Part shown: positions 7,209 to 14,880 of the stretch, piece after piece | Layout: each line of letters opens with the position of its first letter | Position numbering within the stretch: position 1 is the first letter of the stretch | From: Pararhodobacter sp. | GTDB taxonomy: Bacteria > Pseudomonadota > Alphaproteobacteria > Rhodobacterales > Rhodobacteraceae | DNA: 64,000 bases | NCBI GenBank assembly: GCA_020832545.1 | Contig: JAFIEK010000009.1 | Coordinates: forward strand, 1-64,000 | Direction of reading: 5' to 3' | The notes under the pieces: model-generated | Database searches by the model: none | Told to the model about the DNA's origin: nothing | The model's input: only the letters and a program-made list of their open reading frames with translations | Program-made: the position numbers and the translations under genes

Positions 7209-10200
7209 TCAGCGTGCCGACGACCACCAGCCGCGCCGACGGGGTTTGTCAGATGCGGGTTCGGGCGCGGTTTCGGGCACGGCTTCTGTGGCAGCGTCGT
7301 CGGGCGCGTCAGTGCCGCCCGTGGATTCAGCAGGTTCGGGGTTGGGCTGAACCGCCGGCTCGGCCTCTGTGGCCACCTCGGCCACCGGCTCTGCGGGTGC
7401 CTCTGCCGGGGCCGGGGTCTCAGCCTCGGCGGCAGGCGGCGCTGCTACGGTTTCTACAGCCGCCGATTCCACAGAGGTCGCTGCAAGTGCCGGTTCCGGG
7501 GCCATGGCTTGTATCACCGCGTCTGCGGCGATCTCGGCGGCAGGTTCGGGCACGGCGTCCGAAACGGGCTCTGGCTCAGCGACAGGCTCGGCTTCAGCAA
7601 CAGGAGCGTCCGCGACAGGTGTTTCGGCACCCGGGGCTTCAGCAACGGGCGCCTTGCGGGTGCGCCGACGTTTGGGCGCGGGCTTGGCAGCCTCCTCGGC
7701 TGCGGGCGCGCTCTCAGTGGCTGGCGCAGCCTCGGTGGCTGGCGCGACTGCTGCTGCCTCGGCGGTGTCTGCGGCCTTGACGGGCTTGCGGCGGGTCCGG
7801 CGCTTGCGCACGGGCTTGGCCTCATCGTCGGTCGTTTCAGCCGAAGCCTCTGCGGTCGCGCCAGCGGCCGCCTCGGGCACCGCAGCCGCGTCAGGCGTTT
7901 CAACCTCAGCCGCCTTGCCCTGATCTGTGACCTGATCTGCGGCGTGATCTGTGGCCTGATCGTCAGCCTCCGCGTCTGATCCGGGGCCACCCTCGGCCCC
8001 GCCACGACGCCGACGCCGACGGCGACGGCGCTTGCGCCCGCCACCCTCACCATCGCTATCGCTCGATCCGGTATCGCCGCTCTCACCAATGACCCTTGCC
8101 TCTGCGGCAACTTCGGCCACAACCTCAGCCTCGGCCTCTTCCTGATTTTCCGCATCGAACATCGCGTCGTCGATATCAGACATGGTCTGCGCATCGAACG
8201 AAATCACGGCCGCAGGTGGCGGTGCGACGATCCGGGTCGCCGTCTTGAACTTTTCAATCGAATAGTCAGGGCTGATCAGCGTGGGATCCGCCTCGATCCG
8301 GATGGCCATACCATACCGCAGCTCAATCTGTGCCAGATGCTCGCGCTTGGCATTGAACAGGTAGTTCACAATCCCCACGGGCGCCTTGAGCAACACCTCG
8401 CGGGTACGGTTGCGCGTGCCCTCTTCTTCCAAAGCGCGCAGAATGGCCAGCGCGATGGAATTGTCCGAACGGATCAACCCGGTGCCGTGGCAATGCGGGC
8501 AGGGTTGGGTGGTGGCCTCCAGCATACCGGGGCGCAGACGCTGGCGCGACATCTCCAACAGGCCAAAGCCCGAAATGCGGCCGATCTGGATGCGGGCACG
8601 GTCGTTTTTCAGCTTTTCCTTCAGCCGTTTCTCAACGGCGGCGTTGTTCTTGCGCTCTTCCATGTCGATGAAATCGATCACGATCAGCCCGGCAAGATCA
8701 CGCAACCGCAACTGGCGTGCAATCTCTTCCGCCGCCTCAAGGTTGGTCTTGAGCGCGGTATCCTCGATCGATCCCTCGCGGGTGGATTTGCCCGAGTTGA
8801 TGTCGATCGCCACCAGCGCCTCGGTGATACCGATCACGATATAACCACCTGATTTCAGTTGCACCGTGGGGTTGAACATGGCCCCCAGATAGCTTTCCAC
8901 CTGAAAGCGCGCGAAAAGCGGCAGCTGGTCGGTGTATTGCTTCACGTTGCGGGCATGGGACGGCATGATCATTTTCATGAAGTCCTTGGCCACACGGTAG
9001 CCACCCTCGCCTTCGACCAGAACCTCATCAATCTCGCGCGAATAGAGATCGCGGATCGAGCGTTTGATCAGATTGCCCTCTTCATAGATCGGCGCAGGCG
9101 CGATGGATTTCAGGGTCAGTTCGCGGATCTGCTCCCACAGACGCGAGAGATATTCATAGTCGCGCCGGATCTCTGCCTTGGTGCGGTTGGCACCGGCAGT
9201 GCGGATGATCAGGCCAGCACCCTCGGGCACCACGATCTCCTGCGCGATTTCCTTGAGCTTCTTGCGGTCAGCGGCCACGGTGATCTTGCGGCTGATGCCA
9301 CCACCGCGCGCAGTGTTGGGCATGAGCACGCAGTAGCGACCGGCCAGCGACAGATAGGTGGTCAGCGCCGCGCCCTTGTTGCCGCGCTCTTCCTTGACCA
9401 CCTGCACCAGCAGGATCTGGCGAACTTTGACCACTTCCTGAATCTTGTAGCGGCGGGTACGAGGACGGCGCGCGGGGCGCAACTCGTCCGAGACATCCTC
9501 ATCGGCGATGGATTCGATCTGGTCATCCAACTCGGCCGCATGGTCGGCGGCGCGGTAAGGCTCGGCCTCGTCGGACTCGTCGCCATTTTGCGATGCGCCG
9601 TTTTGCGCATCATCGCTGCTATTGTCGCCAGTTGCATCAGACTTGGCCGCGCCACGCCCGCGTCCGCGCCGACGCCCGCGCGGGGCGGGCGCGGTTTCTT
9701 TGGTTTCAGCAGTTTCAACACTGCCGTTATCCTCGCCCAGATCGACGATATCCATACCGCCGATCTCACGGGTGGTGACGGCATCAGGGCTGTCAACCGG
9801 CGCGGCGATCGAGATGGGAGGGGTGTTTGACCCCGAGGTCTCGGGGGCTTCGCTGGCCCCGGCCTGTCCGATATCGTCTGGCTGCGTAGCATTGCCAGAC
9901 TGCGCGGCGTTCTCAGCCTGCGCAGTATCGTCGGCCTGCGTGGTGTCCTTACCGCTGTCGGCACCGTCTTTGCGGGTATCGCCGCGCCCGCGACCGCGCC
10001 GTCCGCCACCGCGCCCTGAATCTTCTTCCTGGGCCTGGGCAAAGACGCGCTCTTCTTCCAGCAGCGCTTTGCGATCGGCGACCGGGATCTGATAGTAATC
10101 AGGATGGATTTCGGCAAAAGCCAGAAAACCGTGCCGGTTTCCGCCATAATCGACAAACGCCGCCTGCAGCGAGGGTTCGACCCGCGTTACCTTGGCGAGG

Positions 10201-10328
10201 TAGATATTGCCCGCAAGCTGGCGCTTGTGGATGGTCTCGAAATCGAACTCCTCGACCTTGTTTCCGTCGACCACAACAACACGCGTTTCCTCTGCGTGGG
10301 TGGCATCAATAAGTAGTTTCTTTCCCAT
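7209..10328 (-). CDS. rne: Ribonuclease E/G family, RNase E
   Basis: 1039 aa; MGKKLLIDATHAEETRVVVVDGNKVEEFDFE, S1 region, CPHCHGTG zinc link, low-complexity Arg/Ala/Glu/Pro-rich C-terminus. Confidence 0.93.
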   Translation of the reverse strand: MGKKLLIDATHAEETRVVVVDGNKVEEFDFETIHKRQLAGNIYLAKVTRVEPSLQAAFVDYGGNRHGFLAFAEIHPDYYQIPVADRKALLEEERVFAQAQEEDSGRGGGRRGRGRGDTRKDGADSGKDTTQADDTAQAENAAQSGNATQPDDIGQAGASEAPETSGSNTPPISIAAPVDSPDAVTTREIGGMDIVDLGEDNGSVETAETKETAPAPRGRRRGRGRGAAKSDATGDNSSDDAQNGASQNGDESDEAEPYRAADHAAELDDQIESIADEDVSDELRPARRPRTRRYKIQEVVKVRQILLVQVVKEERGNKGAALTTYLSLAGRYCVLMPNTARGGGISRKITVAADRKKLKEIAQEIVVPEGAGLIIRTAGANRTKAEIRRDYEYLSRLWEQIRELTLKSIAPAPIYEEGNLIKRSIRDLYSREIDEVLVEGEGGYRVAKDFMKMIMPSHARNVKQYTDQLPLFARFQVESYLGAMFNPTVQLKSGGYIVIGITEALVAIDINSGKSTREGSIEDTALKTNLEAAEEIARQLRLRDLAGLIVIDFIDMEERKNNAAVEKRLKEKLKNDRARIQIGRISGFGLLEMSRQRLRPGMLEATTQPCPHCHGTGLIRSDNSIALAILRALEEEGTRNRTREVLLKAPVGIVNYLFNAKREHLAQIELRYGMAIRIEADPTLISPDYSIEKFKTATRIVAPPPAAVISFDAQTMSDIDDAMFDAENQEEAEAEVVAEVAAEARVIGESGDTGSSDSDGEGGGRKRRRRRRRRRGGAEGGPGSDAEADDQATDHAADQVTDQGKAAEVETPDAAAVPEAAAGATAEASAETTDDEAKPVRKRRTRRKPVKAADTAEAAAVAPATEAAPATESAPAAEEAAKPAPKRRRTRKAPVAEAPGAETPVADAPVAEAEPVAEPEPVSDAVPEPAAEIAADAVIQAMAPEPALAATSVESAAVETVAAPPAAEAETPAPAEAPAEPVAEVATEAEPAVQPNPEPAESTGGTDAPDDAATEAVPETAPEPASDKPRRRGWWSSAR

Positions 10329-10716: not shown

Positions 10717-10868
10717 TGGGAAAAATGCGCCGCCGGGGCGGGGGCTGCCTTCCGGCCGGGCGCAGAAGCGGGTTGTGCTGACCCCCGATCAACAAACCCG
10801 CCCTACCCTTTTGTTTTCAGTCACATTTCCTGATCAATAGGCCTGTGCACAATTGTGCGCCATATGCG

Positions 10869-12242
10869 TTAGATGTATTCACCCCGGCTAAGCCCGTATT
10901 TCGCCATTTTCTCGTTCAGAGTGCGGCGCGGCAGGCAAAGCTCTTCCATCACCGCCGCGATCGACCCCTTGTGACGGCGCATGGTGTTGTCGATCAGCGT
11001 GCGCTCGAACGCCTCGACATAATCCTTGAGCGGCTTGCCCTCCGTCGTCAGTGCGCCGCCGGCAGATTCGTTGTCAGCCATGACCAGCGACACCACCGAC
11101 CCCGCGCTTCGCCGGTTCTGCAAGACCGCCTGTTCGGCGATGGAAATGAGCTGGCGGACATTGCCCGGCCAGGGTGCCTGCAACAGATGCGCGGCATCCT
11201 GCGCGGACAGATCGGGCGCGGGGCAGCCGTATTCCTCGGCGAAATCGGTGGCATAGGAGTTGAAGAGCGCCAGAATATCCTCGCCGCGCATCCGCAGGGG
11301 CGGCAGGGTGATCTGCATGGCGGCCAGCCGGAAAAAGAGATCCGGGCGCAGCGCATCTTCCAGCGTGCGGCCCAAAGCATGCTGATTGCAGATCGCCACG
11401 ATCCGGGTGGCGGCGGGGCTGCCCTGTTCGTTGATGAAGGCCAGCAGACGGCCCTGAAGGACCGGGCTGAGCGCCTCGATATCCTCAATGCACAAGGTGC
11501 CGCCGCGCACCTCTTCGACCAGCGGCAGCCCCCCGCCCTCAACCGGGCCGAAAAGCCGTGCGGCCAGTCGCTCATCCTCTTCGCCGATGCAAGAAACCGA
11601 AATGAAACGCTTGCCCGCGCGTGGCCCCACGGCGTGCAATGCGTGGGCCACCAGCGTCTTGCCGGTGCCGGTTTCGCCATCGACCAGAACATGACCATCA
11701 GCCTGACCGTAATCGAGGATATCCTCGCGCAGGCGCACCATTTCGGGCGAATTGCCGACCAGACGGCGCATCAGGGTCTTGCCGTCCGCCAGTTCATGGC
11801 GCAGCGCGCGATTTTCCAGCGCCAGCGCGCGCGCCTTGACTGCATTGCGGGCCAGTTCGGTCATCCGTTCCGGATCAAACGGTTTTTCCAGAAAATCATA
11901 GGCTCCCAGCCGCATCGCCTCGACCGCCATGGGCACATCGCCATGACCGGTGATCAGGATCACCGGCAACGTCGAGTCCATCCCCATCAGCCGCTTCAGA
12001 AGCACCATGCCATCCATGCCCGGCATGCGGATATCGGTGATCACGGCACCCGGAAAATCAGGACCCAGCATGCGCAACGCCTCTTCGGCGCTGGCAAAGG
12101 TATCGGGCTGAAACCCCGAAAGCGACAACCACTGGCTGATCGACTGCCGCATATCCTGCTCATCGTCGATAACCACGATCCGCGCGGCGTGGCGTGTGGG
12201 TTCGCTTTCGCTCATGATTGACTCGGCTTCTGCGTTGTTCAT
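10869..12242 (-). CDS. dctD: DctD-like NtrC-family response regulator (receiver + AAA+ + Fis-type HTH)
   Basis: Receiver domain IVVIDDEQDMRQSI...VITDIRMPGMDG; Walker A GETGTGKT; PWPGNVRQL; adjacent to dctB; start could be 12242 or 12215. Confidence 0.8.
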   Translation of the reverse strand: MNNAEAESIMSESEPTRHAARIVVIDDEQDMRQSISQWLSLSGFQPDTFASAEEALRMLGPDFPGAVITDIRMPGMDGMVLLKRLMGMDSTLPVILITGHGDVPMAVEAMRLGAYDFLEKPFDPERMTELARNAVKARALALENRALRHELADGKTLMRRLVGNSPEMVRLREDILDYGQADGHVLVDGETGTGKTLVAHALHAVGPRAGKRFISVSCIGEEDERLAARLFGPVEGGGLPLVEEVRGGTLCIEDIEALSPVLQGRLLAFINEQGSPAATRIVAICNQHALGRTLEDALRPDLFFRLAAMQITLPPLRMRGEDILALFNSYATDFAEEYGCPAPDLSAQDAAHLLQAPWPGNVRQLISIAEQAVLQNRRSAGSVVSLVMADNESAGGALTTEGKPLKDYVEAFERTLIDNTMRRHKGSIAAVMEELCLPRRTLNEKMAKYGLSRGEYI

Positions 12243-12294: not shown

Positions 12295-14154
12295 TCAGGC
12301 CGCCGCGCCTTCGGCATCGGCCCAGAGCGGCAACACAATCTCAAACGCCGCCCCTCCTTCGGTCATGTTCTGCGCGGTCAGCCGCCCGCCATGGTCGGCG
12401 ATAATCCCGGATGAGATCGCCAGCCCCAGGCCAACCCCCTCGCCCGCCCGCTTCGAGGTGTAGAACGGCTCGAATATCTGGTCGATATCAACTATCCCGC
12501 CGCCATTGTCGCGCACTGTCAGGATGACGGTTTCGCCCTGCGACAGGATCAGGCTGATCTGCGGCGCGTTTACCGTGGCGGTGGCATCGACAGCGTTTCG
12601 CATCAGGTTGATGATCACCTGTTCCAGCCGCAGCCGGTCGCCCATAACCATCACCGGCACATTGGGCAAGGTGCGCTGCACCAGAACCCGGCGCTCGCGC
12701 AGGCGTGGCTCCATCATCGACAGTGCTTCGGCGACACAATCGCGCAGATCAAGGGGGGCAAAGGCATCGCCACCCTTGCGCGCGTAGGATTTCAACTGCC
12801 GGGTGATCGCGCCCATCCGGTCAATCAGGTCATCAAGACGCTGAAACGACACCAGCGCCTCTTCGGCGCGGCGACGGTTCAGCAGCAGCCGCGCACCCGC
12901 CAGATAAGTTTTCATCGCCGCCAGCGGCTGGTTCAGCTCATGGCTCACAGCCGCCGACATCTCGCCCAGAACGGCCAGTTTGGACGATTGCGCCAGCGTC
13001 TGTTCGGCCACAGTCAGGTCCTCCTGCGCTTTTTGCCGCGCCGCAATCTCACGTTGCAAACGCAGGTTGAGCTTGCGAAGTTCCACAGATTCCTGCTCGA
13101 ACGCCGCTGATTGTGACCAGGCACGGCGCGAAAACACGTAAAACAGCAATGCCAGAAGCAGCGCATAGCCCATGATGACAATGGCCAGAACACCGTTCAC
13201 CTGCTCGCGCACGCCATCAAAACGGGTGTAGGAAATCAGCTTCCAGCCCCGGTGACGCACCCGTGTCTCCGAACGCAGAACACCCACATTCGACACAAAG
13301 GTATCCGGCCCCCGCCCTGCCCAGTCAGCGGTGGCGCGCAGCGCGCGCAGGATGGCCGAGGGCGCATCGCGCAGCGCCAGTGCCTCTTCCTCGGTGCGCC
13401 CGCGCCAGCGCGGCTCGGTCGACAGGATGATCTGCCCCTCGCTGTCGGTCAGCGCAACGGCATCGGCAAAACCGGCCCAGGCGCGCTCAAACTTGGCCAG
13501 ATCCACCTCAACCGTGACTACCCCCAACAGCAACCCGCCCATACGCAGCGCCCGCGCAAAACCAAAGCCATAGCCGCCGCTGTCTCGCTCATGCACGGCA
13601 AAGATGGTGTCATTTGTCCGCCGCGCCTCGACAAAATAGGGCTCGGTAGAGCGGGTTACGCCCAGCCGGTTGCGGTCTGTTGCGCCGACCACTCGGCCCT
13701 GTGTGTCCAGCAGTTCGATCGAGGCTGCACCGACCTCGTTCTGAACATCCATCAGCACCTGCGAGATGGAGACATAGTTGGAGCTTTGCAACGCCTCGCG
13801 CAGCGCCGGATCGCGGGCCAGCAAGATCGGCACCACCTGCGTGCGCTGCAACTCAGATTCGATATTGCCGGAATAGAGCACCAACCGCAGTTCGGCCCGG
13901 TTGCGGGTATCGACGGTGAAGTTCTCGGTCAGCCAATCGTTAAGCACCCAGACCGAAGCCGCAGCCGCCAGCACCAGAAACCCGACAAAGAGCTTGCCCC
14001 AGATCGGCATGCCGCTGCGCAACCCGGGCTGCACGTCCGGATCCGCGCGCTTGCGCTGGCCACCGGCCGCTGGCGCCGGGCCAGAACGTGCTGGGCCAGA
14101 GCGGGCCGGGTCAGCGGCCGCTGGGCGCGGATTGGAGGTGAGATCGGTGCTCAT
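12295..14154 (-). CDS. dctB: DctB-like sensor histidine kinase
   Basis: Periplasmic sensor region, H-box AAVSHELNQPLAAMKTYL, N box NLMRNAVDA, G box GVGLGLAIS. Confidence 0.82.
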   Translation of the reverse strand: MSTDLTSNPRPAAADPARSGPARSGPAPAAGGQRKRADPDVQPGLRSGMPIWGKLFVGFLVLAAAASVWVLNDWLTENFTVDTRNRAELRLVLYSGNIESELQRTQVVPILLARDPALREALQSSNYVSISQVLMDVQNEVGAASIELLDTQGRVVGATDRNRLGVTRSTEPYFVEARRTNDTIFAVHERDSGGYGFGFARALRMGGLLLGVVTVEVDLAKFERAWAGFADAVALTDSEGQIILSTEPRWRGRTEEEALALRDAPSAILRALRATADWAGRGPDTFVSNVGVLRSETRVRHRGWKLISYTRFDGVREQVNGVLAIVIMGYALLLALLFYVFSRRAWSQSAAFEQESVELRKLNLRLQREIAARQKAQEDLTVAEQTLAQSSKLAVLGEMSAAVSHELNQPLAAMKTYLAGARLLLNRRRAEEALVSFQRLDDLIDRMGAITRQLKSYARKGGDAFAPLDLRDCVAEALSMMEPRLRERRVLVQRTLPNVPVMVMGDRLRLEQVIINLMRNAVDATATVNAPQISLILSQGETVILTVRDNGGGIVDIDQIFEPFYTSKRAGEGVGLGLAISSGIIADHGGRLTAQNMTEGGAAFEIVLPLWADAEGAAA

Positions 14155-14211
14155 GCGCCCAATCTACGCCTGCGCGTGTTCCGGCTCAAGCGGCGCGGCA
14201 ACGGCGTGTGA

Positions 14212-14880
14212 TCACGTCAGCGCCATGGCGCTCATCAATCCGCTGAACAATGCCCGGCCATCGGTGCCGCCATGCACCGGCGAAATCGCCCGCTCAGGGT
14301 GCGGCATCATACCCAGAACCCGGCGATTGGCCGACAGGATACCGGCAATGTCATCCACCGAACCGTTGGGCGTCTGCGCATAACGAAAGGCCACACGCCC
14401 TTCGGCCTGCAGGCGCGCCAGGGTCTCGGGATCGGCCTGATAGTTGCCGTCATGATGGGCAACCGGAATGGTGATAGATTGATCCGGCGCATACTCGCGG
14501 GTGAAAGCACTGTCGGTCGTTGCAACCTTTAGCGTCACGGGCTTGCAGATGAACTTCAGCCCGGCGTTGCGCATCAGGGCACCGGGCAACAGACCGGTCT
14601 CAAGCAGAACCTGAAAGCCGTTGCAGATACCCAGCACATAGCCCCCACGCCCTGCAAATTCGACCACCGCACGGGCGATGGGCGAGCGCGCGGCGATGGC
14701 ACCGCAGCGCAGATAATCGCCAAACGAAAAGCCGCCGGGAAGGCCCACGACGTCAGTACCCTCGGGCAGTTCGGCGTCTTTGTGCCAGACGCGGGTGACC
14801 TGTGCGCCCGCTGCCGCAAAAGCGACAGCCAGATCGCGGTCACAGTTAGACCCGGGAAAGGTGATGACAGCCGCTTTCAT
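14212..14880 (-). CDS. purQ: Phosphoribosylformylglycinamidine synthase subunit PurQ
   Basis: 222 aa; [21 protein letters not shown], catalytic [10 protein letters not shown]. Confidence 0.95.

Follow-up and report, generated by a model that had tools for sequence, protein, structure and literature searches.

A widely conserved DctD-like response regulator of Rhodobacterales that lacks the GAFTGA loop and probably controls genes by a route other than sigma54

The window, i.e. the whole stretch of 64,000 nucleotides of Pararhodobacter sp. that was analysed, encodes a DctD-like response regulator in which Pfam recognises a receiver, a Sigma54_activat AAA+ domain, an AAA lid and a Fis-type HTH. 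This is the architecture of NtrC-family sigma54 activators (bEBPs), and in PspF and NtrC1 the loops L1 and L2 are the parts which reach sigma54 and promoter DNA. The GAFTGA-bearing L1 loop is missing here, which raises the question whether such a protein can activate sigma54 polymerase at all and how it acts otherwise. The original prediction from the DNA of the window was that this DctB/DctD pair may work at sigma70 promoters, or only bind DNA, rather than as a classical sigma54 activator. Our analysis indicates that the protein probably controls genes by a route other than sigma54, together with the housekeeping RNA polymerase. The parts of the gene are as follows.

10869..12242, minus strand: GAFTGA-less DctD-like response regulator (REC-AAA+-Fis HTH), 457 aa, ATG at 12242
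11838..12182, minus strand: receiver domain with the phospho-acceptor D70 (12033-12035); D70, T98 and K120 do not vary among 60 orthologues
11655..11678, minus strand: intact Walker A GETGTGKT (K in 60/60, T in 59/60; orthologue alignment)
11499..11555, minus strand: site of the lost L1/GAFTGA loop (LFGPVEGGGLPLVEEVRGG; alignment)
11475..11495, minus strand: altered Walker B LCIEDIE, E-D replacing D-E (alignment)
11385..11447, minus strand: shortened L2/pre-sensor I segment, leading to sensor I (N286; alignment)
11325..11348, minus strand: arginine fingers, both kept (RPDLFFRL; alignment)
11148..11171, minus strand: sensor II WPGNVRQL, kept (alignment)
10872..11036, minus strand: Fis-type HTH with the recognition region LPRRTLNEKMAKYGL, the part under strongest constraint

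Losses and conserved residues in the AAA+ domain

The motifs were compared in an alignment of 60 orthologues against 17 GAFTGA-bearing DctD proteins. The stretch across L1 comprises 17-21 aa in the orthologues versus 26 aa in every canonical DctD, and GAFTGA occurs in none of about 75 aligned orthologues, the most divergent included. Furthermore, the L2/pre-sensor I segment is cut to 15-16 aa in the 60 orthologues compared to 25 aa in the canonical proteins, a second loss that the earlier reader had overlooked. The first acidic position of Walker B is E in 60/60 orthologues and the second is D in 56/60 and G in 4/60, whereas canonical proteins read D-E. In contrast, the Walker A lysine, both arginine fingers, the sensor II arginine and D70 are kept in 60/60 and the sensor I asparagine in 58/60. 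The strings from which the original prediction had started (RLAARLFGPVEGGGLPLVEEV, LCIEDIEAL and GETGTGKT) are all present in the translation, and its observations of a missing loop, an intact Walker A and an altered Walker B were all confirmed. Its proposed check on the Rhodobacterales orthologues showed that they have the deletion in common.

As read from the alignment, the pattern is selective: the sigma54 contact was removed, the residues of the nucleotide pocket and the subunit interface were kept, and the hydrolysis chemistry was altered. Compared with the group I sigma54 bEBPs of the NtrC family, the protein possesses Walker A, arginine fingers and sensor II but lacks GAFTGA, a full L2, the D-E of Walker B and the co-occurrence with sigma54; it represents a conserved NtrC-family architecture without GAFTGA. 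Within the genus, dN/dS amounts to 0.16 for the AAA+ domain, 0.14 for the receiver and 0.05 for the HTH, values that place the AAA+ domain under purifying selection. The loop loss is not due to chance, to a sequencing error or to the decay of a pseudogene, because all orthologues of the same family are alike and because of the AAA+ dN/dS value.

The AlphaFold2 model of the regulator reached a pLDDT of 84.9 and a pTM of 0.54, the latter making the domain placement unsure. The PDB entries nearest to this model are those of Brucella NtrX with ATP/ADP, and the receiver matches that of S. meliloti DctD (1qkk) with a Foldseek TM of 0.92.

Two deviating orthologues should be mentioned. The early-branching L071 (G033:C2:276-1598) shows GERGAGRS at Walker A and KN at Walker B and has lost the arginine fingers, which means that ATP binding is not universal across the wider clade; it retains REC, HTH and kinase, and its genome has sigma54. 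L226 and L233 (G255:C1:1372297-1373618) are one orthologue in two reading frames, due to a frameshift or an assembly error.

Occurrence in the order, operon and partner kinase

Among 246 near-complete genomes sampled across the order, 243 contain an orthologue (called at E <= 1e-95), covering 99/101 genera. The lowest-scoring orthologues of this sample were fetched and are also devoid of GAFTGA, and the same losses occur in every core orthologue of a 60-genome set of relatives. Sigma54 was counted in the same 246-genome draw, as judged from the listed handles. A profile search did not find its DNA-binding domain in 184 of the 246 genomes, 8 further genomes gave weak matches (E 5e-5 to 9e-4), and rpoN was convincing in 54. 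The second domain, PF04963, is also missing in 20 orthologue-bearing genomes, including two Ruegeria and one Paracoccus. The three genomes lacking the orthologue (G182, G213 and G299) all have a strong rpoN, and G182 and G299 possess a GAFTGA-intact DctD. Since the orthologue is retained in so many sigma54-free genomes, sigma54 activation is excluded as the function of the family. Hence, the statement that the protein is not a classical sigma54 activator held, based on the loss of both sigma54-side loops and on at least 184 genomes without sigma54.

The public label of the orthologue is accordingly wrong when it reads "sigma-54-dependent", as in the NCBI-style annotation of the orthologue in Paracoccus ferrooxidans ('sigma-54-dependent Fis family transcriptional regulator'). 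The AAA+ domain still scores 78.6 bits against Sigma54_activat despite the losses, which accounts for the automatic annotation. A gene present in nearly all sampled genomes of an ecologically important order has thus been misread in its role, since it is annotated as sigma54-dependent and most of the genomes are without sigma54.

The orthologue stands directly after dctB and purQ in 31/31 core named loci examined, followed by rne and ccdA in most of them. In the window, the neighbourhood comprises:

14212..14880, minus strand: purQ, conserved neighbour upstream
14161..14189, minus strand: sigma70-type dctB promoter TTGAGC-N17-TAGATT, ATG 6 nt downstream
12295..14154, minus strand: partner kinase, DctB-like (double Cache, HisKA, HATPase; domain search)
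7209..10328, minus strand: rne (RNase E), usual neighbour downstream

A counterpart of the dctB promoter was found in 31/33 loci versus 1.9 expected from shuffles. The family promoter reads TTGAG-N17-TANNNT, and in nearly all loci the dctB ATG follows 6-7 nt past the -10 box, so that the dctB mRNA would be near-leaderless; it is probably leaderless across the family. This promoter tells how dctBD is expressed and not which targets it regulates. Several candidate operators and targets were rejected. The perfect palindrome GCACAATTGTGC at 10847-10858, just past the dctD stop of the window, does not qualify as an operator, since relatives have no such palindrome there and commonly show terminator-like hairpins instead. 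Regulation of rne is unsupported, as the dctD-rne intervals have no motif in common. Likewise, dctPQM drops out as a target in the host, whose genome is without such a DctP.

The names DctB and DctD should not be read as a function. In the DctB-like sensor, E and E stand in place of the ligand-site residues R and K that DctB carries in S. meliloti and V. cholerae; by itself this is a weak point, since most dctP-adjacent kinases have also lost them. A DctP of the dctPQM type is absent from the host genome (best match 31%; a DctP probe served only to locate real sequences) and likewise from several other orthologue-bearing genomes. Moreover, the DctD operator TGTGCG-N6-CGCACA does not occur in the host genome. 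Taken together, these points weaken the functional reading of the name in the original prediction, and sensing of C4-dicarboxylates by the kinase is doubtful. The host genome encodes 29 DctP-family binding proteins, none of the dctPQM type.

Descent and loop-less relatives

In a tree of 71 proteins, the orthologues form a clade inside the DctD group and apart from NtrC, NtrX and LuxO-like proteins (97/92, 100/99), with a weak placement within the DctD group (84/33). By descent, the regulator therefore belongs to the DctD subfamily. DctD of S. meliloti has GAFTGA, a full L2 and a D-E Walker B and needs sigma54. The window protein shares the receiver, the domain order and the type of partner kinase with it; however, GAFTGA, L2 and Walker B are all changed, and most genomes with the orthologue are without sigma54. 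On the tree, loops were lost in several branches that stand apart from each other. AU tests rejected a single origin of four loop-less groups (p 0.007) as well as of the orthologue clade and a dctP-adjacent clade (p 0.024). The groups were named after the motifs had been seen and some branches are long, which makes this evidence of repeated loss good but not final.

Among known systems, NtrC of R. capsulatus lacks GAFTGA, works with sigma70 and depends on ATP binding rather than hydrolysis according to Bowman and Kranz (1998) as cited in PMC10274813; NtrC of Caulobacter also lacks GAFTGA (PMC10274813). The R. capsulatus protein resembles the window protein as a response regulator of the NtrC family that has no L1/GAFTGA loop, and the host's own NtrC (L005) shows a similar double loop loss, in which L2 is short, and its Walker B is altered. 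However, the R. capsulatus protein belongs to the NtrC and not to the DctD subfamily, so that the loop loss is most simply explained as a separate event; its partner is NtrB and its field is nitrogen control. The comparison drawn in the original prediction is therefore useful as a mechanism but fails as orthology, given that the host has its own NtrC and the loop was lost more than once. NtrX of Brucella abortus (5m7n/o/p) is the closest full-length structure, has no intact GAFTGA and binds ATP/ADP, yet it differs by a D-E Walker B, a full-length L2 and another HTH and partner kinase. VpsR, HupR, TyrR and DhaR are bEBP-type regulators with lost or altered GAFTGA and sigma70 partners (PMC3162934; VpsR, PMC10274813), although they belong to unrelated subfamilies with other signals and hosts. 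Hence, regulators of such kind are already known, and the window protein seems to be a core member that has not yet been characterised. Our literature search, with subscription papers mostly outside its coverage, found no study of the orthologue.

A second DctD group in Ruegeria and relatives, often encoded beside dctP, no longer has Walker A, L1 or L2 (L176, L177, L178, L182, L184, L185, L188-L190, L192, L195 and L198). It is similar to the window protein in order, DctD subfamily, L1/L2 loss and many sigma54-free hosts, but differs in the loss of Walker A, the retained D-E Walker B and, by the AU test, a separate origin. Sigma54 was undetected in the Ruegeria carrying this degenerate DctD. 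Most dctP loci that were read contain one or two TGTGCG-N6-CGCACA palindromes upstream of dctP, with paired sites 32-33 bp apart; these are probable operators. A simple pattern search did not find a sigma54 promoter upstream of Ruegeria-type dctP. The locus L179, from a genome with rpoN and a GAFTGA-intact DctD, has similar sites near dctP plus a candidate sigma54 promoter.

For R. pomeroyi, SPO2626-2628 correspond to dctMPQ (PMC10130141) and SPO2630 is annotated as C4-dicarboxylate TRAP regulator (PMC10041152). Mutation of SPO2630 abolished about 97% of growth on fumarate, likewise that of SPO2626 and SPO2628 (PMC10130141). SPO2630 is probably the dctP-adjacent paralogue, an assignment made by gene order only, and a polar effect of the transposon insertion is possible. 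If the match is right, positive regulation in a sigma54-less lineage is exerted by a DctD that has neither GAFTGA nor Walker A.

A further DctB/DctD-type clade carries GAFPGA (or GAFAGA) and comprises L002 (G000:C53), L074, L128, L134, L137, L138, L187, L200-L203, L205, L207 and L208. The host's second DctB/DctD-type pair belongs to it and adjoins a TAXI-type binding protein. The S. meliloti pSymB region L208 was dropped as DctD control, as it encodes a GAFPGA paralogue. A preference for Thr/Ser-to-Pro changes among defective motifs has been described (PMC3162934).

Proposed mode of action and its alternatives

We propose a core regulator of the order that acts as phosphorylated ATP-binding oligomer together with sigma70-type polymerase, mainly as activator and independent of sigma54; we assign this reading a probability of roughly 0.6. 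Its ancestor would have been a GAFTGA-bearing DctD-type protein whose sigma54 partnership has since been lost. The DctB-like kinase would phosphorylate D70, the receiver would then permit the AAA+ domains to form a ring or dimer that bound ATP stabilises, and the kept Walker A, arginine fingers and sensor II would serve this assembly. Given the loss of L1 and L2 and the change in Walker B, hydrolysis-driven loop movement would be needed little or not at all. The oligomer would position the Fis-type HTH on its operators and act on the housekeeping sigma70-type polymerase. We infer that ATP is bound without having to be hydrolysed and that the polymerase is contacted and activated, and likewise infer the operators and targets; action at sigma70 promoters is plausible by analogy with R. 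capsulatus NtrC, for which sigma70 activation was demonstrated, with Caulobacter NtrC and with the degenerate Ruegeria paralogue and its presumed R. pomeroyi counterpart. Some observations speak against this model: repression alone would fit most data, the phenotype comes from a paralogue identified by gene order with conceivable polarity, the L071 branch is without a nucleotide site, and the host has one rpoN.

The protein could alternatively repress transcription or bind DNA in a purely structural role, with an AAA+ domain that provides phosphorylation-controlled oligomerisation without polymerase contact. The strongest constraint on the HTH, the altered polymerase-side loops and hydrolysis chemistry, the early branch that keeps REC and HTH without a nucleotide site and the fact that Caulobacter NtrC both represses and activates (PMC10274813) would all agree with it. 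However, Walker A, both arginine fingers and sensor II are the same throughout the 60 core orthologues, which goes beyond the needs of a plain dimeriser, and the presumed R. pomeroyi paralogue acts as positive regulator; we consider this reading unlikely. Similarly, the invariant Walker A, arginine fingers and phosphorylation site make it less likely that the protein only binds DNA. Still less probable is a C4-dicarboxylate regulator acting on dct transport genes of the host: the tree position inside the DctD group and the matches of receiver and sensor to S. meliloti DctD and to DctB structures are set against the missing dctPQM-type DctP, the lost sensor R and K and an operator that is missing in the host, yet stands beside dctP in species with another DctD.

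Activation of sigma54 polymerase where rpoN exists, via a non-GAFTGA surface or by mixing with an intact bEBP, is conceivable in the host, which has one rpoN and an intact GSFTGA bEBP; moreover, HTH mutants of Caulobacter NtrC, without GAFTGA, raised sigma54-dependent transcripts (PMC12421884). But the loop losses are identical in sigma54-bearing and sigma54-free genomes, and the gene is kept in 243/246 genomes, at least 184 of them without sigma54, which leaves little probability for such a residual link. The lost motifs and the G255 orthologue split in two frames could also indicate a decaying relic with no regulatory role; this reading was rejected on the dN/dS values and the 243/246 occurrence, and the single copy in nearly all genomes, the fixed synteny with the kinase, the strong purifying selection and the conserved operon promoter make it hardly credible.

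Extending the proposed sigma70-type activator to an order-wide core regulon, in which a sigma54 remodelling ATPase came to activate the housekeeping polymerase by binding ATP and without remodelling, as one of several DctD-type conversions in a group whose genomes mostly lack sigma54, is more tentative, and we rate it slightly below even odds. The orthologue and the degenerate paralogues offer a natural series on the rewiring of an enhancer-binding ATPase to the housekeeping polymerase, with loops lost at an intact ATPase site, an altered Walker B, and in some cases the loss of the entire nucleotide site. The question can be tested directly in sigma54-free hosts that are amenable to genetics, such as Ruegeria.

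Two further groups were observed. L193, L194, L196 and L197 form an NtrC-like group with a broken Walker A (GEPGTERE), an altered Walker B and no L1. The regulators L072, L073, L204, L229 and L230 lack GAFTGA, have intact Walker A and B (HTH IGRRTLNEKIVKLG), and are possibly active ATPases without sigma54 contact.
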